Source of the DNA: Halorussus amylolyticus
Lineage (GTDB): Archaea > Halobacteriota > Halobacteria > Halobacteriales > Haladaptataceae
Direction of reading: 5' to 3'
Length of the DNA: 64,000 nt
NCBI RefSeq assembly: GCF_004143485.2
Contig: NZ_ML974138.1
Span: 1-64,000, forward strand
The notes under the pieces are model-generated. The model had not been told where the DNA came from and searched no databases. It was given only the letters and a program-made list of their open reading frames with translations. The position numbers and the translations under genes were made by a program. Shown here piece after piece: positions 22,160-38,768 of this stretch (the stretch's first letter is position 1; each line of letters begins with the position of its first letter).

Positions 22160-22228
22160 GCCGAAGGCCGCTCCCGGAGATCGGTCATTCGGTCGCCGTT
22201 TACGCCTTCGTTTTCGATATCGTAAACG

Positions 22229-29379: not shown

Positions 29380-32355
29380 TCAGCGGGCGAGCGCGGCCGC
29401 CAACCGTTCGACGGGATGGGCCGGTCGCTCGTCGTGGAGTTGCGACCGGCAGGATGCACCCGGCGCGACCACGGCCTCGGCGTCCGCGTCGCCGAATTGG
29501 TCGCGGAGAATCGAGCCGATAGCCTGCGAGAGGTCGTAGTGTTCGGCGTGGTAGCCGAAGCTTCCGGCCATGCCACAGCATCCCGAATCGAGCGCCTCGA
29601 CCTCGTAGCCCGCGCGCCGAAGGACCGCGGCGGCGTGGGCGTCGGTGCCGACCGCCTTCTGATTGCAGTGGCCGTGGTACGCGAGTCGGTCGCCGGGCGC
29701 GTCGAAGTCGAGGCGGTCGTCGAGTCGCTCTCGGTCGATGTACTCGCAGACGCCGTAGGCGTTCTCGGCGACCGTCTCCACGTCGGGACCGTCCAACAAG
29801 TCGCGGTACTCGTCCTGCACCATCACGGCGTCGGAGGGTTCGACGTACACCACCGACCAGCCCTCGCGGACTCGGGGCGCGAACTGTTCGACGTTCGACG
29901 CGGCGCGTGAGCGCGCCGCGTCGAGCAGGCCCTCGGAGTAGGCAGGCCGCCCGCTCGATTCGGCGTCGGGCACCTCGACCCGGACGCCCGCGGCTTCGAG
30001 GACCTGCACCGCGGCCCGGCCCGCCGCCGGGTAGACGTAGTTGGTGTAGGTGTCGGGGACGAGCAGGACGCGGTCCGTCGCGTTCCCGACGGGAACGCGC
30101 GGACCGCCGCGCGCGTCGAACCACGATTCGAACGACTGGTCGGCGAACTCCGGCGGGTCGCGCTCGCGGGCGACCCCGACCACTTTTTCCGCGACGAGGC
30201 CGCTTCCGGGGAGGTCGGCCAGCCAGTTCGAGACGGGCGCGAGCGCGCTCCCAACCCGTGCGAGGCGGTCCACATCGGCGAACAGGCGCTCACGGAGACC
30301 GACGCCCTCGCGTTCGTGGTAGCGGTGTTTGACCTCGGCTTTGAGTTTGGCCAAATCGACGCCCGTCGGGCAGTCGCTCTGACAGCCCTTACATCCAAGA
30401 CAGAGGTCGAGGACCTCCTGCTGGAATCGCTCGGAGTACATCTCGTCTTCCGAGAGTTCGCCGGAGATGGCGGCCCGGAGCATGTTCGCCCGGCCGCGTG
30501 TGGTCGCCATCTCCTCGTTCATCCCGCGATAGGAGGGGCACATCACGTCCGAGTCGGTCTGTCGGCAGGTGCCACACCCGTTGCAGAGTTCCACGAGATG
30601 CGAGAAGCCGCCCTCTTCCGAGAAGTCCTGCTCGGTGGTCGGTTCGAGCGACGAGTACGCTGGGCCGTACCGGAGATTTTCGCGCATGTCGGTGGGGGAA
30701 TCGTCCCGAAACACCACCTTGCCGGGGTTCATCCGCCAGTCGGGGTCGAACACGGTCTTGAGTTCCCTGAACGCCGACCAGAGTTCGGGACCGTACATCT
30801 TGGGGTTGAACTGCGTCCGGGCGAGACCGTCGCCGTGTTCGCCCGAGAACGACCCCCGGTGGTCCAGCACGAGCGAGGTCACGTCCTCGGCGATGGACTG
30901 CATCTTCTCGATGCCCTCGCCGTCCTTTAGATTCAGTACCGGCCGGATGTGAAGCGTGCCGCTCCCGGCGTGGGCGAAGTAGGCCGCCGAGGTGTCGTGG
31001 GCTTTCAGCACGCCCATGAACCCCTGGACGTACTCGGCGAGTTCGTCCGGCGGGACCGACGCGTCCTCGATAAACGGGTAGGGCTTCGGGTCGCCCTCCA
31101 TGCTCATCAGGAGCGGAATCGCGGCCTTTCGGAGCTTCCAGAGCTTCGCCTGTTCGTCGGGAGCGTAGGCTTCCAGCACGTCGAAGGCCGCGCCCGCGTG
31201 GACGAAGTGAGCCGAGGTTTCCGCGATGGCTCCTTCCAAGTCGTCGGTGCCTTCCGAGTCGAACTCCAGCATGAGCGCCGCGGCGGCACCCTCGGGAATA
31301 GGGTCGGCGTACTCGGCGTACTCCGACGACTCGCGGGCGAGTCGGAACACCTCCTCGTCCATGAGTTCGACCGCGCTCGGGTCGAATTCGAGCGCTTCGG
31401 GCACCGCCTCCATCGCGGTCACGAGGTCGTCGAAGCAGTAGAGCGCGAGCGCGGTCTCCTCGGGTCGCGAAACGAGCGAGAGGGTCGCCTCGGTCACGAC
31501 GCCGAGCGTCCCCTCCGCGCCCACGAACAGCTTGGAGAGATTCACACATACGTTTCCGTTTGCGTTTTGGTAAACGACTTCGTGGAGGTTGTACCCCGAC
31601 ACCGACCGCTTGAGGTCCGGATAGCGAGACTCGATTTCGTCGGCGTTGGCCTCGACCAACTCCCGGACCGTCCGATACAGGTCGGCCTCGCGGTCGTCAC
31701 CGGACACGATTTCGTCCCATTCGGGACTGTCGAGAACGATTTCGCGGGCGTGGACGGGCGTGCCGTCCGCCAGAACCGCCCGGACCTCCTCGACGTAGGC
31801 GTCCGTGATTCCGTACCGGACCGAGTGCGCTCCGGTGGAGTTGTTCCCGATGCCGCCGCCGATGGTCGCGCGATTCGAGGAGGCGGGGTCGGGCGCGAAC
31901 TTCAGACCCCACTCCGCGAGGTGGGCGTCTAGATCGTCCTGCACGACTCCGGGTTGGACCGTCGCGCGCTCGGCGTCGGGGTCCACGTCCAGAATCGCGT
32001 CCATGTGCCGCGAGAAGTCGAGGACGACACAGCCCGGCCCCACCGTCTGGCCCGCGAGCGACGAGCCAGCGCCTCGGGGCAGGACCGGCGCGTCGTGGTC
32101 GGCCGCGACTTCCATCGCGGTTCGAACGTCGGCCGAATCGGTCGGGAACACGACGCCCGCCGGGCGGGCCTGATAGATGCTCCCGTCGGTCGCGTAGAGG
32201 ATTTGGGTGTACTCGTCGAACCGAACCGCACCGTCGCAGGCGCTCCGGAGGTCGGCCGCGAGTTCGGCGTGGGCGGGGTCGTCGGGCGCGTCGATGTCGA
32301 GCGACTCTCGGAACGCCTCGAAATCCGGGGCGTCGGACCGGGAGGGAGAAGACAT
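29380..32355 (-). CDS. D-lactate dehydrogenase-type FAD/FeS oxidoreductase (GlcD-GlpC fusion)
   Basis: A 991-residue flavoprotein. Order: FAD_binding_4 domain (ARPAGVVFPTDSADVRTAMEVA, PRGAGSSLAGQ, NRATIGGGIGNNSTGAHSVRYG; about 60-250), FAD-oxidase C domain (to about 560), two 4Fe-4S motifs (CNGCGTCRQTDSDVMCPSYRG and CLGCKGCQSDCPTGVDL), and a C-terminal CCG domain (GHCNQKAVG, DSGCCGMAGSFGYH). It should oxidise D-lactate or another 2-hydroxy acid and pass electrons to the respiratory chain. The ATG at 32355 is about 25 nt from a TATA box (ATTTAAGCC near 32379), which argues against the longer frame. Its C-terminal half is related to that of the LutB-LutA fusion at 49185. Confidence 0.92.
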   Translation of the reverse strand: MSSPSRSDAPDFEAFRESLDIDAPDDPAHAELAADLRSACDGAVRFDEYTQILYATDGSIYQARPAGVVFPTDSADVRTAMEVAADHDAPVLPRGAGSSLAGQTVGPGCVVLDFSRHMDAILDVDPDAERATVQPGVVQDDLDAHLAEWGLKFAPDPASSNRATIGGGIGNNSTGAHSVRYGITDAYVEEVRAVLADGTPVHAREIVLDSPEWDEIVSGDDREADLYRTVRELVEANADEIESRYPDLKRSVSGYNLHEVVYQNANGNVCVNLSKLFVGAEGTLGVVTEATLSLVSRPEETALALYCFDDLVTAMEAVPEALEFDPSAVELMDEEVFRLARESSEYAEYADPIPEGAAAALMLEFDSEGTDDLEGAIAETSAHFVHAGAAFDVLEAYAPDEQAKLWKLRKAAIPLLMSMEGDPKPYPFIEDASVPPDELAEYVQGFMGVLKAHDTSAAYFAHAGSGTLHIRPVLNLKDGEGIEKMQSIAEDVTSLVLDHRGSFSGEHGDGLARTQFNPKMYGPELWSAFRELKTVFDPDWRMNPGKVVFRDDSPTDMRENLRYGPAYSSLEPTTEQDFSEEGGFSHLVELCNGCGTCRQTDSDVMCPSYRGMNEEMATTRGRANMLRAAISGELSEDEMYSERFQQEVLDLCLGCKGCQSDCPTGVDLAKLKAEVKHRYHEREGVGLRERLFADVDRLARVGSALAPVSNWLADLPGSGLVAEKVVGVARERDPPEFADQSFESWFDARGGPRVPVGNATDRVLLVPDTYTNYVYPAAGRAAVQVLEAAGVRVEVPDAESSGRPAYSEGLLDAARSRAASNVEQFAPRVREGWSVVYVEPSDAVMVQDEYRDLLDGPDVETVAENAYGVCEYIDRERLDDRLDFDAPGDRLAYHGHCNQKAVGTDAHAAAVLRRAGYEVEALDSGCCGMAGSFGYHAEHYDLSQAIGSILRDQFGDADAEAVVAPGASCRSQLHDERPAHPVERLAAALAR

Positions 32356-33531: not shown

Positions 33532-33580
33532 ATACGTTTTCGTTTTCGGAAACGATTACGTAAACGAATTCGAAAACGAA
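33532..33580. repeat. Cluster of CGTTTNCG palindromic words
   Basis: The stretch contains CGTTTTCG twice, GGAAACG, TTACGTAAACG, GAATTC and CGAAAACG in about 50 bp, the same words as in the palindromes near parA. It lies inside a weak 83-codon frame (33401-33652) that has no recognisable domain and that I therefore do not call as a gene. Confidence 0.6.
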
Positions 33581-33681
33581 CTCGGCCGCGAGACGAAACC
33601 GGGCGCACAGGTCCGCGCTAAACGACTTACCCGCCGAACAGGAGGCGCGTAACAAAGGCCGTTCGCCGAGTTTGAACAGGC

Positions 33682-34443
33682 ATGTCAGTCCGTAGCGCCG
33701 ACCTGACCGAAAAGTGGTACGAGTACGTGTACCGCGATAGGGCCGAGTCGGTGCGTCAGTTCGTGGACGCGTACCCCGACCGGCGCGCGCTCTCGGTGAG
33801 TTGCAGTCGGTTCGGTCACGACTACCGGTTCGTCCGACCGCTGCTCGCCGACCCCGACGAGGTCCTTCGCGCGGGAAAGGCCGCACTCGGGCGGTTTCTC
33901 GGCGAAGCAGACGGCCGAGACTTCGAGGACGCCTACCTCCGCGTCACCGACTTGCCCGCGAAAAGCGACATCTCGCTGTCGGAGATTCGCGCGCGACACC
34001 TCAACGAACTCTACACGACCCACGGGATAGTCGCCGAAACGGGTCCCATCCGCCCGAAAGTCGTCCGAGCGGCGTTCCGGTGCGGGAAGTGCGAGGCGGT
34101 CACTCGCCACGTAGCCCAACCGGGGCGCGAACTTCGAACGCACGAGAAGTGCCCGCGGTGTAACTCCGTGGGCTACCTCTCGTTCGCACCCGAGGACAGC
34201 GAGTACGTCGATTCCCAGGAAATCGCGCTACGGGACCCCGACGCCAACGCAAACGGGGAGGGCGGGCCGACCCCGAAAGCGATGACAGTGCTGCTCGAAC
34301 ACGACCTCGCCGGGTCGGTGTCGAGCGGCGAGCGCGTCCAGGTGGTCGGCATCCCGCGGGCCGACAGGTCGGGAGATTCGACAGTCAGCGAGACGTGGGT
34401 CGAATCGGTGAGTATGGAACGCTTAACCGAGTCGAACGCGTAG
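33682..34443 (+). CDS. Stand-alone MCM N-terminal-domain (OB-fold/zinc) protein without the AAA+ helicase
   Basis: A 253-residue protein that matches the N-terminal DNA-binding half of the replicative helicase MCM. Helical subdomain A (1-95) is followed by an OB-fold interrupted by a zinc finger with C134, C137, C157 and C160 (FRCGKCEAV, EKCPRCNSV). It then has the MCM-like SEYVDSQEIALRDPD, TPKAMTVLLEHDLAGSVSSGERVQVVGIPR. The AAA+ motor is entirely absent; the frame ends normally with TESNA. It may bind single-stranded DNA or modulate the true MCM. Its setting next to parA and many palindromes hints at a replication or partition role (inference). Confidence 0.85.
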   Translation: MSVRSADLTEKWYEYVYRDRAESVRQFVDAYPDRRALSVSCSRFGHDYRFVRPLLADPDEVLRAGKAALGRFLGEADGRDFEDAYLRVTDLPAKSDISLSEIRARHLNELYTTHGIVAETGPIRPKVVRAAFRCGKCEAVTRHVAQPGRELRTHEKCPRCNSVGYLSFAPEDSEYVDSQEIALRDPDANANGEGGPTPKAMTVLLEHDLAGSVSSGERVQVVGIPRADRSGDSTVSETWVESVSMERLTESNA

Positions 34444-34547
34444 CCTCCCGCGATTTTCGCGTTGTTCGGACGTGACACGTCCACCGAGGCCTGAAACGGC
34501 CACCACTCTTTTGTCGGTTCGATGACTTCCTTGTAACAGGGGAAACG

Positions 34548-34850
34548 ATGTACGACTTGACGGGGTTCCAGCGCGACCTGCTGTACGTCATCGCGGGATT
34601 AGACGAACCGCACGGTCTCGCCATCAAAGCGGAACTCGAAAATTACTACGAGAAGGAGATTCACCACGGGCGACTGTACCCGAACCTCGACACCCTCGTC
34701 GATAAGGGGTTCGTCGAGAAGGGCCAGCGCGACCGCCGGACGAACTACTACACGCTGACCCGACGGGGGACCCGCGAACTCGAAGCCCGCAGGGAGTGGG
34801 AAGCCCAGTACGTCGATTCGGAGTCGCTACAGCCGACCGCGGAACCGTAG
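34548..34850 (+). CDS. PadR-family transcription regulator
   Basis: A 100-residue winged-helix protein of the PadR family: FQRDLLYVIAGLDEPHGLAIKAELENYYEKEIHHGRLYPNLDTLVDKGFVEKGQRDRRTNYYTLTRRGTRELEARREWE. It is a minimal one-domain regulator; a short acidic tail follows. It lies 104 bp after the MCM-like gene on the same strand, preceded by a TATA-like element near 34515. Haloarchaeal PadR-like proteins of this type are related to viral and proviral repressors and cell-status regulators; the target is unknown. Confidence 0.9.
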   Translation: MYDLTGFQRDLLYVIAGLDEPHGLAIKAELENYYEKEIHHGRLYPNLDTLVDKGFVEKGQRDRRTNYYTLTRRGTRELEARREWEAQYVDSESLQPTAEP

Positions 34851-34868
34851 GACCGCGAGACCGCAGAA

Positions 34869-35540
34869 CTACGGGTGGGACGCGGCGAGCGCCGCGCCGA
34901 CGACCGCGGCGTCGGCCGACTGCACCCATCGCAACACGGGACTGTCCTGCACGAGAAGATACTCGTCGCCCGATTCTTCGAGCACCGAGAGCTCCACGAG
35001 CTGTTCGACGTGAATCCACACCGCCTTTCGAGAGACGCCGGTCAGCCGGTGGACGTCCTCCTGCGTGAGCGACCGGTCGGGGTCGGCCGAGACGAGCGCG
35101 TCCACCATCACGCGCACCGAGTCGAGTCGCGAGAGGTGACGGAATCCGGACTTGTCGTCGGGTGCGCCCGTGGCTTCGACCGCCGCCGAGAGCTTTCGAA
35201 CCGCGTGGAGCACGACGCTGTGTTCGTTCACGCGATACGTCCCCTCGTCTGCGAACAGCACGCCGAGCGAGATGAGCGAATCGACGACCGAATCGACGGC
35301 CTCGGGGGTCCTGTCGGCCATCTCCGCGAGGTCGTCGGTGCCGTACCGGGCGTCGGTGTCGGCGTCGCGGAGCGCGTCCACGAGCGCGCGAATCGACTCG
35401 TCGCCGGTCAGCCAGAGCCAGCCGCTCGGGTAGGCCCGTCTGGCCTCCGAAACGTCGCTCTCGTCGGCTAGCTCCCACATCTCCGCCTCGGTGTCGGTCG
35501 TGCGCAACTGGCGGTCGTCGTCGGTCGTGGGGAGGCTCAT
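34869..35540 (-). CDS. Winged-helix regulator with duplicated HTH
   Basis: A 223-residue protein with two winged-helix units: residues about 35-105 (SIRALVDALRDADTDARYGTDDLAEMADRTPEAVDSVVDSLISLGVLF) and about 145-205 (SVRVMVDALVSADPDRSLTQEDVHRLTGVSRKAVWIHVEQLVELSVLEE). The internal similarity suggests duplication. A TTTTTATCG TATA box centred near 35564 is 26 nt from the ATG, pointing to a leaderless message. It is convergent with padR and follows a small gene on the same strand. No ligand domain is seen. Confidence 0.8.
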   Translation of the reverse strand: MSLPTTDDDRQLRTTDTEAEMWELADESDVSEARRAYPSGWLWLTGDESIRALVDALRDADTDARYGTDDLAEMADRTPEAVDSVVDSLISLGVLFADEGTYRVNEHSVVLHAVRKLSAAVEATGAPDDKSGFRHLSRLDSVRVMVDALVSADPDRSLTQEDVHRLTGVSRKAVWIHVEQLVELSVLEESGDEYLLVQDSPVLRWVQSADAAVVGAALAASHP

Positions 35541-35583
35541 TAGGTTTGGGGTATCGCGGAGGCGATAAAAAGCTAGCGGGCGA

Positions 35584-35970
35584 TTAGTCGTCGGACGTTT
35601 CGCACTCGACGCGCCACGACCACTCGCTCTCCGCGCGAATCCGGTCGTACAGGGATTCAAGCGCCGCCGACGCGGTTTCGGGCAGGACGTGAAATTCGAC
35701 CGTGCCGTACCGCACGACCACCCGGAACGCGGTGGCGTGGCGTTGGTCGTGAACGAGATACACCGGCTTCGGGAGTTCGAACCAATCACCGTAGGTGTAC
35801 CGCTCGGCGGAAAGTACGCCTTCAACGAGCGCCGCGAGTTCGGAGTCCGGCGTCTCGACGTCGGGCGAGAGGTGGAAGACGGTTCCTCCCTCGTGCTCGA
35901 CGCCGCCCTCGCGCGGATAGCTCCGCGTCGGGCGGCGCGGAATGTCGAACGTCGGCGCGTCGTCGGTCAT
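35584..35970 (-). CDS. Hypothetical protein, 128 residues
   Basis: A soluble alpha/beta protein (HEGGTVFHLSPDVETPDSELAALVEGVL, ELPKPVYLVHDQRHATAFRVVVRYGTVEFHVLPE). The alternating strands and helices are compatible with a small ferredoxin-like domain. A TATA-like TTGATAAGTG near 35998 lies 26 nt upstream, so it has its own promoter. It ends 43 bp before the winged-helix gene on the same strand, with which it could be co-expressed. The family is not recognised. Confidence 0.65.
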   Translation of the reverse strand: MTDDAPTFDIPRRPTRSYPREGGVEHEGGTVFHLSPDVETPDSELAALVEGVLSAERYTYGDWFELPKPVYLVHDQRHATAFRVVVRYGTVEFHVLPETASAALESLYDRIRAESEWSWRVECETSDD

Positions 35971-36122
35971 CTGAACCGGATTACGTCGGCATCACTTATC
36001 AATGTCCGCGCCGCCCGAGCAACGGCCGCATTCGATTTCGACATCGTTTGCGTTTTCGTTTACGCAGACGTTTCCGGGGAACGGTGGCGAGTTTCCCCGG
36101 AAGGCGATGGCGTACCGGCGAG

Positions 36123-36154
36123 CGACTGCGAGTTCGCAAGCGAACTCGCAGTCG
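36123..36154. repeat. Inverted repeat, 15-bp perfect arms
   Basis: Arms CGACTGCGAGTTCGC and GCGAACTCGCAGTCG with an AA spacer, in the gene-free gap 35971-36345. Confidence 0.9.
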
Positions 36155-36191
36155 TGGTTGCGAACAGCGTACTCGAAAACGTATACGCAAA

Positions 36192-36235
36192 CGTATCCGA
36201 AAACGCGTTCGTGTTCGAACGCGTTTTCGGATACG
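36192..36235. repeat. Inverted repeat with perfect 20-bp arms built of CGTTTTCG-type words
   Basis: The left arm CGTATCCGAAAACGCGTTCG and its complement are separated by TGTT. It is preceded by CGAAAACG, TACGCAAACG words (36172-36191) and lies in the same gap as the repeats at 36123 and 36315. The gap 35971-36345 has no gene I can support. Confidence 0.95.
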
Positions 36236-36314
36236 ATTAGAATCGGGGGAACGAGATAATAGAGGACAGAATCGAGTCGAACGAAAACACTCGACGAGAG
36301 ACCGGCGAGATAGC

Positions 36315-36334
36315 CGTTTACGAAAACGTAAACG
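36315..36334. repeat. Palindrome of CGTTTACG words upstream of the parA partner's 3' end
   Basis: CGTTTACG and CGTAAACG flank AAAA. It lies 12 nt beyond the stop of the small gene at 36346 (minus strand), so it could also serve as its terminator region. Confidence 0.8.
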
Positions 36335-36345
36335 CTAACGATAGC

Positions 36346-36735
36346 TCAAACGTTTCTGCGAGCGTGCTCGGCCGACGCGTCGGCGAGGAGGTCGAGATAC
36401 GAAGGAGCCGCCTCTCGGAGGCCGAGTCGGACCGCGAGGCGCACGATTTCGCTTCGGTCGAGCGACGACGAGTCGATGTCGCGGCCGAGCGCCTGCTGGA
36501 GCGACGTGCCGACCTCCGCGAGTTCGTCGTCGTGGTTCGCGAGAACCGCCAGGAGTGCGGTCACCGATTCGTCGCGGGCGGCGAACGTCTTCGCCTGTTC
36601 GCCCGACTCGATTGCTTCGAACGCTTCGACCAGTTCCTCCACGAGGTCGTCGCCGTCGTCCTCGACGCGAGACTGGTCGAGGCGGTCGGTGCGCTGGGTC
36701 TGCTGGCGGAGTTCTTCGAGGTCGGGGTCGCTCAC
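36346..36735 (-). CDS. Small acidic helical protein coupled to ParA
   Basis: A 129-residue all-helical acidic protein (LEELRQQTQRTDRLDQSR, DDLVEELVEAFEAIESGEQAKTFAARDESVTALLAVL, SSLDRSEIVRLAVRLGLREAAPSYLDLLADASAEHARRNV). The C-terminal part SLDRSEIVRLAVRLGL resembles a ribbon-helix-helix or similar helical dimer element. Its start overlaps the parA stop by 4 bp (36732-36735), so it is translated with parA. By analogy to partition operons it may be the DNA-binding or adaptor partner, although no ParB domain is visible. This role is inferred from position alone. Confidence 0.75.
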   Translation of the reverse strand: MSDPDLEELRQQTQRTDRLDQSRVEDDGDDLVEELVEAFEAIESGEQAKTFAARDESVTALLAVLANHDDELAEVGTSLQQALGRDIDSSSLDRSEIVRLAVRLGLREAAPSYLDLLADASAEHARRNV

Positions 36736-37640
36736 GCCGACTCACCCCGGTCGGTCGAGTCGCCGCCGTCGGGTCTGACCGCCCTCGCGTCGGCGAGTCG
36801 CTCGGCCAGCACCTCGGCGTTTTCTAGGAATGCTTCGCGTGCGCGCGCGGCGGTCGTGGACGGCTCTTCGAGCGCGAACGCGGTCCGGCCCTGCTCGGCC
36901 GCGTTTCGGATGTCCTGACTCACGGGGACGTGAGCGGGCGCGACGGCGTCGGGGTAGGCCTCCCGAAACGCTTCGAGGTACTCCTCGGCGAGCGTCGTCC
37001 GGGTGTCGACCTTGTTGGGGAGCACCATCGCGAGGTTCACGTCCACGTCGAAGTTGGCCGCGATTTTGTCGAGGTCCGCGCGGAGCGCCTCGGCCTGCTC
37101 GGACTCGAACGGTCCCATCTCGACCGGCGCGATGACGTTCCGAACCGCCCACAGACCGTTGTAGCTCACGTTGTTCGTCAGCCCCGGAAGGTCGATGAGA
37201 ATCGCGTCGTAGCCCAGCGGTTCGATGTACTCGTCTAAGAACGAGTCGAGTCGCGAGTAACGGTCGTGGGCGTCGTCGATGTTCCCGAGTTCGGCGTCGA
37301 GGCTGTCGAGACCGGGATGGGCGGGGATGAGGTCCACGCCCTCGTCGGTCTGGAGGACGAGGTCCTCAACCGCGGCGTCGCCGAGCTTTTCGGCGATGGC
37401 GGCCCACTGGTCCTGAAACACGGTCGAGATGTTGGGCCAGTCGTTGTCGTCGGCTATCTGGCGTTCGACCGTCTCCCAGCACCCGAAGTGCTTGACGAGG
37501 TCGCCCTGCTTGCCCGCGAGGTCGATGAGCAACACGTCCTTGCCCTGCTCGGCGAGCGCCACGCCGAGGTGGGCCGCAGTCGTCGTCTTGCCCGTGCCGC
37601 CCTTATCGAGGAACGTACAGGCGCGGATGGACCGAGGCAT
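36732..37640 (-). CDS. parA: ParA/Soj-family partition ATPase
   Basis: A 302-residue ATPase of the ParA/MinD superfamily. It has the deviant Walker A KGGTGKTTTAAHLG (about 12-25), the A' motif DVLLIDLAGKQGDL, and the Walker B-like YDAILIDLPGLTNN. The C-terminal part FDVDVNLAMVLPNKVDTRTTLAEEYLEAFREAYPD follows the ParA fold. It should bind DNA nonspecifically in the ATP state and position a chromosome, plasmid or other cargo. The ATG at 37640 follows a TATA box near 37675 and a perfect 22-bp palindrome that covers the probable transcription start, so autoregulation is likely. Confidence 0.92.
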   Translation of the reverse strand: MPRSIRACTFLDKGGTGKTTTAAHLGVALAEQGKDVLLIDLAGKQGDLVKHFGCWETVERQIADDNDWPNISTVFQDQWAAIAEKLGDAAVEDLVLQTDEGVDLIPAHPGLDSLDAELGNIDDAHDRYSRLDSFLDEYIEPLGYDAILIDLPGLTNNVSYNGLWAVRNVIAPVEMGPFESEQAEALRADLDKIAANFDVDVNLAMVLPNKVDTRTTLAEEYLEAFREAYPDAVAPAHVPVSQDIRNAAEQGRTAFALEEPSTTAARAREAFLENAEVLAERLADARAVRPDGGDSTDRGESA

Positions 37641-37642
37641 GA

Positions 37643-37664
37643 TTTGCGTTTGCGCAAACGCAAA
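37643..37664. promoter_or_regulatory. Perfect 22-bp palindrome between the TATA box and start codon of parA
   Basis: The half-site TTTGCGTTTGC meets its complement without a spacer. A TATA-like ATTAAGT element lies at 37671-37678 on the parA (minus) strand, and the palindrome ends 2 nt before the ATG. It therefore overlaps the predicted transcription start, the position of a repressor site. Confidence 0.75.
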
Positions 37665-37707
37665 CGGGCTACTTAATCCTTCGTCAGACGCTCGCGCGAG
37701 AAATATA

Positions 37708-37747
37708 TTTGCGTTTTCGTTTTCGAATTCGTAAACGGAAACGCAAA
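37708..37747. repeat. Imperfect 40-bp palindrome centred on GAATTC
   Basis: TTTGCGTTTTCGTTTTCGAA pairs with the right half with 2 mismatched positions; the centre GAATTC is at 37725-37730. It sits between parA and the divergent DUF192 gene and uses the same words as the parA operator. Confidence 0.9.
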
Positions 37748-37840
37748 TAGACTGGCGGAGAAGCCGCGATTTCGCGGGTCGCGGGACGCCTACTGGCCTG
37801 ACGGGCAGCTTTTTGACCATCGGCGGAGTAGCAGACATCC

Positions 37841-38422
37841 ATGAGACCGCACGCCGCGCTCCTGCTCGGGGCGCTGGTACTGCTCGGCGGCTGTCTCGGG
37901 GGCGCGGGAGTCATCGACGACGGCGTGGGCGACGAATCCGTGACCGATTCGGAGAGCACCTCGACGACCGAAGAGACGACGCTCCCGGCGACGACTGACG
38001 TGGAGGAGAACGTCACCGCCACGTTCGTCGTCGAGGGGAGCGAAAACCCCACCGTCTCGCTCGAAGTCGCCGACGAACCCGAGGAGCGCGAGAGGGGGTT
38101 GATGCACCGGCCGTCGCTTCCCGAGAACCACGGCATGGTGTTCGTTTACGACGACGCCGGTCCCCGGAGTTTCTGGATGAAGAACACCCTCGTCGCGCTC
38201 GACATCATCTTCGTCGCGCCGAACGGGACGGTCCTGAACGTCGAACACGCCAGGACTCAGCCCGACGCCTCCGACTCGGAGCTCGACAGCTACGCGAGCG
38301 AGGGCGACGCGAAGTACGTGGTCGAACTCGAACGCGGCTTCGCCAATCAAACGGGCGTGGGAGCCGGGACCGAACTGAAGTTCAACGGCTCCGCTCCGGA
38401 AGCCGAAAGCAGTGCGTCGTGA
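37841..38422 (+). CDS. DUF192-family lipoprotein
   Basis: A 193-residue secreted protein. A Sec lipoprotein signal (LLLGALVLLGGC, cysteine at 18) is followed by a Thr/Glu/Asp-rich spacer (about 20-60). The DUF192 domain then shows its hallmarks: SLEVADEPEERERGLMHRPSLPENHGMVFVYDD, SFWMKNTLVALDIIFVAPNGTVLNVEHA and the closing YVVELERGFANQTGVGAGTELKF. The domain is widespread in bacteria and archaea; its role is not established. It is divergent from parA and shares the palindrome-rich upstream region with it, probably by coincidence. Confidence 0.92.
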   Translation: MRPHAALLLGALVLLGGCLGGAGVIDDGVGDESVTDSESTSTTEETTLPATTDVEENVTATFVVEGSENPTVSLEVADEPEERERGLMHRPSLPENHGMVFVYDDAGPRSFWMKNTLVALDIIFVAPNGTVLNVEHARTQPDASDSELDSYASEGDAKYVVELERGFANQTGVGAGTELKFNGSAPEAESSAS

Positions 38423-38652
38423 GCCGGTACGGATGGACGGCTAGAGACACCGCGCGTCCGGAGTTCCATCGGTGTTTGCTACCTTTTGGCAGTGAACTGT
38501 CGGCAAAATCCGGTTAGTAAGCACAAAGCATTTATGGAGTGGGTGAGACCGCAAAAATACCTCGGGTAGGGGTACGCGAGGTACATTCTTTCGAAGCCAA
38601 TCGAGAGCCGTGGCTCTCTCGGGAAAAGAGTCGGGCGGGGGAAATCACAGCC

Positions 38653-38688
38653 TCCGTTTCCGGATTCGATATCGAATCCGGAAACGGA
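38653..38688. repeat. Perfect 36-bp palindrome in the gap before the pcp gene
   Basis: Half TCCGTTTCCGGATTCGAT meets its complement at a central GATATC. GCGTAAACGCAAACG words follow directly (38690-38705). The gap 38423-38768 otherwise holds only AT-rich promoter-like patches (TATTT near 38534, GAAATATG before the pcp ATG) and no supported gene. Confidence 0.95.
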
Positions 38689-38768
38689 AGCGTAAACGCA
38701 AACGTAAATGCAATCTCGCAGTTCGTCCGACGGCAAAGCCCAAGACCACCGGGTTCCCAAACCGAAAT

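Follow-up and report, generated by a model that had tools for sequence, protein, structure and literature searches.

The 64,000 nucleotides of Halorussus amylolyticus analysed here (contig NZ_ML974138.1, positions 1 to 64,000; the window) contain a probable par locus made up of parA and an overlapping small gene for a candidate partner protein, around which short repeated words are gathered in arrays. The parA product matched Pfam AAA_31 (1.4e-18) and CbiA (3e-16) as well as NCBIfam ParA_partition (2e-17, under the family cut-off), and its closest solved chains were Thermus Soj/ParA. Relatives of this ParA with 85-90% identity were present in 13 other Halorussus genomes. Six of the replicons that carry this parA correspond to complete plasmids of 303-557 kb (in H. 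salilacus, H. vallis, H. aquaticus, H. pelagicus, H. limi and H. caseinilyticus), and the locus sits on a Halorussus megaplasmid, not on the chromosome. In the draft genome of the source (3.78 Mb), contig C7 carries an orc1 of the class seen on the relatives' megaplasmids, and because of this C7 and C11 may both derive from a single megaplasmid.

The repeat unit is the hexamer CGTTTN/CGNAAA, which occurs in either orientation in a 6-bp register. Adjacent words in the Halorussus arrays were separated by a multiple of 6 bp in 278 of 283 gaps, and forward (F) and reverse (R) words occupied one common register, so that the unit is a hexamer that can be read both ways. The initial annotation had described a dense cluster of palindromes around parA. 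Every feature that it listed is present: perfect palindromes of 22 bp (37643-37664) and 36 bp (38653-38688), imperfect ones at 36189-36238 (96%), 37706-37749 (91%) and 33539-33580 (81%), and a weaker outlying site near 22 kb, which corresponds to a trio of words (22197-22228). The palindrome as repeat unit, in contrast, is ruled out by purely direct arrays (FFFF, RRRR), which have identical phase. With a phased hexamer of free orientation as the unit, the palindromes are merely words placed head to head. The many direct arrays also speak against RNA hairpins or terminators, which the perfect palindromes among the arrays might suggest, as does the operator array, which lies upstream of a start codon; we regard this explanation as extremely unlikely. 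The tandem word CGTTTNCGTTTNCG occurred 9 times in the window versus 0 in 100 dinucleotide shuffles, and the single word CGTTTNCG 46 times versus 22.6 ± 4.3 in the shuffles, none of which reached 46. Word density was 56 per 10 kb at 33.5-38.7 kb compared with 2.9 per 10 kb elsewhere in the window. Of the 29 words in this segment, 27 were intergenic, within about 1.2 kb of gap DNA.

Table 1. Genes, promoter and word arrays of the probable par locus and its surroundings (window positions; F and R, forward and reverse words)
Feature	Position	Strand	Remarks
parA, 302-aa deviant Walker A (KGGTGKTT) ParA/Soj-type ATPase	36732..37640	-	Pfam, NCBIfam and solved chains
Partner gene, 129 aa, 4-bp overlap with parA	36346..36735	-	proposed centromere-binding protein
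parA promoter: GTCTGACG element and TATA-like TTAA	37673..37689	-	
Operator array TTTGCGTTTGCGCAAACGCAAACG	37643..37666	.	between TATA-like box and parA start codon
Second array upstream of parA, words FFRR in 6-bp phase	37706..37749	.	
Array of four direct words, 3' of partner gene	36045..36076	.	same position in relatives
Array RRRF, makes inverted repeat with 23-bp arms	36174..36238	.	
Array FRR at partner gene 3' end	36315..36334	.	
Array FRRR, contains perfect 36-bp palindrome, upstream of pcp	38653..38704	.	
Array FFRRR upstream of MCM-OB-like gene	33535..33580	.	
Weaker outlying array, three words	22197..22228	.	
Tandem word within flavin adenine dinucleotide (FAD)-binding-protein gene	31551..31564	.	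doubtful member at best
MCM OB-domain gene, 253 aa, helicase part absent	33682-34443	+	annotated MCM in H. pelagicus

The background was taken from genome-wide pattern counts and from samples. The tandem pattern gave 11 matches in the 3.78 Mb, 9 of them in the window, and its reversed control gave 0; the two exceptions outside the window are a site on contig C6 that reads as Asn-Ala-Asn-Gly-Asn codons and a site on C7 that is an array. The head-to-head (inverted-adjacent) form was found at 5 sites genome-wide, 3 of them in the window, and all 8 genome matches to the 12-bp-spaced direct form fell within the window: one is at 22197 and the other seven are at 33.5-38.7 kb. The equal density across the chromosome that would, according to the initial annotation, refute partition sites is therefore not seen. 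As alternatives, that annotation had offered an intergenic repeat general to this genome, or sites for a chromosome-organising protein. The single word is indeed frequent, with 966 occurrences of CGTTTNCG genome-wide against 149 for the reversed control. The tandem and phased forms, however, concentrate at the locus and are nearly confined to the parA replicon, and four 20-kb chromosome samples contained words but no clusters. The whole-genome counts thus contradict a general repeat, to which, together with chromosome-organising sites, we assign almost no probability.

The arrays were kept in 13/13 Halorussus relatives with parA, and in the 10 relatives with full listings, the only ones counted for this fraction, 109 of the 120 tandem sites were on the parA replicon. 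Halorussus genomes without this parA had 2, 2 and 0 tandem sites, and 5 were present in a genome that is 62% complete. In one of the genomes without this parA (G074), two tandem words are located on its contig C2 and are possibly relics. Array positions relative to parA recur in the Halorussus relatives, which is partly due to conserved gene order; most relatives have an array about -4.1 kb from parA, near the position of the FFRRR array of Table 1. The letters of the arrays vary between species while word and register stay constant, and the operator array TTTGCGTTTGCGCAAACGCAAACG is almost invariant across all 13 relatives. Along the full length of the 303-kb plasmid of H. pelagicus, 11 clusters were found, 11/11 phased, and 8 of them lie at 21.6-34.2 kb (within 13 kb), with parA at 23.07 kb. 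A further explanation would make the arrays iterons or Orc1 boxes at a replication origin of the megaplasmid. Iterons, too, are short repeats in phase, and the locus has an MCM-OB-like gene nearby, but the megaplasmid orc1 is about 60-110 kb from parA (about 60 kb in H. pelagicus and about 100 kb in others), no array cluster adjoins the H. pelagicus orc1, and the words follow the strand of the partner protein, as described below. On the orc1 positions we reject origin iterons and Orc1 boxes, a reading that retains very little probability.

In the parA promoter, the GTCTGACG element is located roughly 10 bp 5' of the TATA-like box. Its GTCTGAC motif was found in 52 of 71 parA homologue promoters, mostly 41-59 bp before the parA start, and it persists in different genera, including those with another operator word. 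Four further genome sites lie in front of unrelated genes, which rules out GTCTGAC as a parA-specific second operator, and for this reason we treat it as a promoter element. The motif was not found in the CdrS papers; GTCTGACG/GTCTGAC is possibly an unrecognised haloarchaeal promoter element. In most members one array separates the TATA-like box from the parA start codon; other arrays precede the MCM-OB-like, pcp and DUF192-side genes. These positions would also fit operators of a small regulon by which the small partner, or ParA and partner together, tune parA and its neighbours without a centromere. Arrays on the same replicon are, however, also found distant from parA, the 27 intergenic words of the 29 at the locus exceed what operators need, and known ribbon-helix-helix (RHH) ParB proteins perform both roles at the same sites (PMC9499535). 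We therefore consider a pure regulon unlikely, although less so than the other alternatives.

The candidate partner adjoins 65 of the 71 ParA homologues examined and is labelled only 'hypothetical protein' in public plasmid records. An alignment of its family (A1) showed a conserved N-terminal tail, ELRxQTxxxDR, with invariant Arg18, followed by a strand and then helices. The predicted DNA-reading strand is KTFAARD, with T-A-R as outward residues, and alternates core residues (F/V/L/I/M, A/V/L/M/F) with outward ones. Such an alternation of core and outward residues is known for RHH strands, and from this pattern the partner is probably an RHH-like dimer. A confident AlphaFold model (predicted local distance difference test score, pLDDT, 86.9) gave an extended stretch at 45-55 followed by helices. 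The search of NCBIfam and Pfam with the 129-aa protein returned no significant family, the ParB family included. A canonical helix-turn-helix ParB (CTPase) is ruled out by the failure to find a ParB/Spo0J domain in the partner. The search of PDB sequences with profile A1 found nothing significant and no SegB chain up to E 10, even though the solved structures include a SegB-DNA entry. In one Foldseek list, the SegB-DNA structure (7dv2) had the highest TM-scores (TMt 0.54, E 9.1); the complex was absent among the matches listed for a second AlphaFold model.

Elsewhere among haloarchaeal genera, the gene pair has another word at the same place, either CTATAG or CGTATN; the architecture is shared and the word differs. 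These words were identified by reading promoters, lag autocorrelation being too weak to reveal them. CTATAG is mostly 12-bp spaced, with 35 of 37 gaps multiples of 6, and CGTATN is 6-bp spaced, with 48 of 50. In ten genomes of other genera, 40 of 41 sites for CTATAGN6CTATAG were on the parA contig, as were 16 of 20 sites for CGTATNCGTATNCG in seven genomes; one genome (G135) holds the two systems, with the parA of each next to the corresponding word. The word follows the outward strand residues of the partner: T-A-R goes with CGTTT, T/S-S-R and N-T-R with GTAT, and T-S-W, T-S-Y and T-T-Y with CTATA. The strand class predicts the word class in 48 of 54 systems, and in 34 of 40 after thinning of Halorussus, with some imperfect coarse labels (L099 and L102, labelled GTAT, seem to carry ACATAG/CTATGT). 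This agreement was reached by 0 of 100,000 permutations in a test that ignores phylogeny. The W/CTATA type appears at several points of the ParA tree, for example in L104 beside L089 (R/GTAT; support 100/95) and in the L086-L095 group nested in an R/GTAT clade. Its presence in several places indicates that strand residue and word have switched jointly more than once. Solely from this covariation, we conclude that the partner very probably reads the arrays itself. In the clade with an N-T-R strand (L112, L115, L116), the words upstream of parA are GTATC, GATAT and TGTAT, with a spacing that recalls the 7-bp step of SegB's TCTAGASTCTAGA.

Starting from the arrays, their phase, their restriction to one replicon, their conservation and the strand-word covariation, all computed here, we infer partner binding, ParA activation and partition, and consider it likely that the locus is a partition system of ParA and an RHH-like (SegB/Omega-like) partner in which the arrays serve as centromere and autoregulatory operator. 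The proposal in the initial annotation that the arrays are partition sites for a partner of ParA is supported by their concentration at parA in its own genome and in 13 relatives, by the common architecture in other genera and by the covariation of strand and word. Of the features expected of a type I (ParA) partition locus, the window shows a deviant Walker A ATPase, centromere-like repeats beside the operon and an adjacent conserved gene for a putative DNA-binding partner. With steps taken from known RHH ParB systems (PMC9499535) and SegAB (PMC12284271), a partner dimer would read CGTTTN either way through a beta-strand with outward Thr-Ala-Arg, and neighbouring dimers would dock at 6 or 12 bp, so that runs of three to five phased words could assemble a cooperative partition complex. 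The centromere would then comprise several arrays around parAB and a small number at other places on the replicon. Through its conserved N-terminal tail and the invariant Arg in it, the partner may stimulate the ParA ATPase on the nucleoid and thereby separate plasmid copies, and the complex formed on the operator array would repress its own operon. Somewhat less firmly, we favour the view that haloarchaeal plasmids share one family of ParA plus small RHH protein with a phased-hexamer centromere, whose specificity would reside in about three strand residues (T-A-R, T-S-R, T-S-W, N-T-R, T-T-Y), strand and word having switched together repeatedly.

Several observations weigh against this interpretation, in addition to the neglect of phylogeny in the permutation test. 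The partner has no significant Pfam match, RHH_1 being hit by only 2 of 43 members at E ~0.016, and Foldseek with two AlphaFold models gave no significant fold match, so that the RHH fold stays inferred. The N-T-R clade uses 6/7/13-bp spacing and not 6n, and clear words are absent from a minority of the homologues (L030-L032, L035, L037, L080-L082), whose partners are longer or different; these possibly have another type of centromere.

The general plan of ParA plus a small DNA-binding partner with an iteron centromere is already known; what is new is the hexamer register, the words specific to each clade and the code that links strand and word. Descriptions of this partition family were not found in the open-access papers searched. 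Closest in layout is ParA-Omega (delta-omega) of pSM19035 (PMC9499535), which also combines ParA and a small partner (RHH proposed here) with short, orientation-free repeats, arrays that overlap the ParA gene promoter and several sites per plasmid. There, however, an RHH ParB uses a 7-bp heptad parS, whereas here the unit is 6 bp (or 12), the system is archaeal, the word is clade-dependent and no sequence similarity to solved RHH proteins was detected. SegAB of Sulfolobales (PMC12284271, PMC5120986) shares the order of an archaeal ParA homologue followed by an overlapping small-partner gene (RHH proposed), as well as sites clustered near the operon with others scattered on the same replicon. 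It differs in being chromosomal and in its 13-bp TCTAGASTCTAGA palindrome, compared with mostly plasmids and phased hexamer arrays here. The partner differs from SegB by sequence and by site: profile A1 found no sequence homology, and the sites are CGTTTN, CTATAG or CGTATN arrays, not of TCTAGASTCTAGA type. ParF-ParG of TP228 (PMC7308502) also pairs a ParA with a small centromere-binding protein, there an RHH protein that has a flexible N-terminal tail, but host, sequence and repeat are different and no sequence match was found here. AspA-ParB-ParA of pNOB8 (PMC5120986) is also an archaeal plasmid partition cassette; it comprises a winged-helix-turn-helix AspA with a palindrome of 23 bp and, as adaptor, a separate ParB, in contrast to only two genes here.

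The form of archaeal centromeres, and whether they are clustered or dispersed, is among the open questions listed in PMC5120986. For an entire family of haloarchaeal plasmids, the analysis yields a candidate partner protein together with DNA words and exact coordinates, and it assigns a putative function to a gene annotated only as hypothetical. The correlation of residue and word can be tested by single-residue swaps. The system would also help to explain how cells with several large plasmids keep their partition systems separate, and would supply stable-vector parts for haloarchaeal genetics. The reading of one shared family, if true, would provide a natural recognition code that prevents co-resident plasmids from sharing a centromere, and a distributed centromere on megaplasmids.

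Two minor features of the surroundings are also kept in relatives. The MCM-OB-like gene is retained near parA on Halorussus megaplasmids. The array within the FAD-binding-protein gene is probably a product of its Asn-Ala-Asn-Gly-Asn codons, as judged from the translation, and is retained in several relatives as N-A-N-G-N codons.

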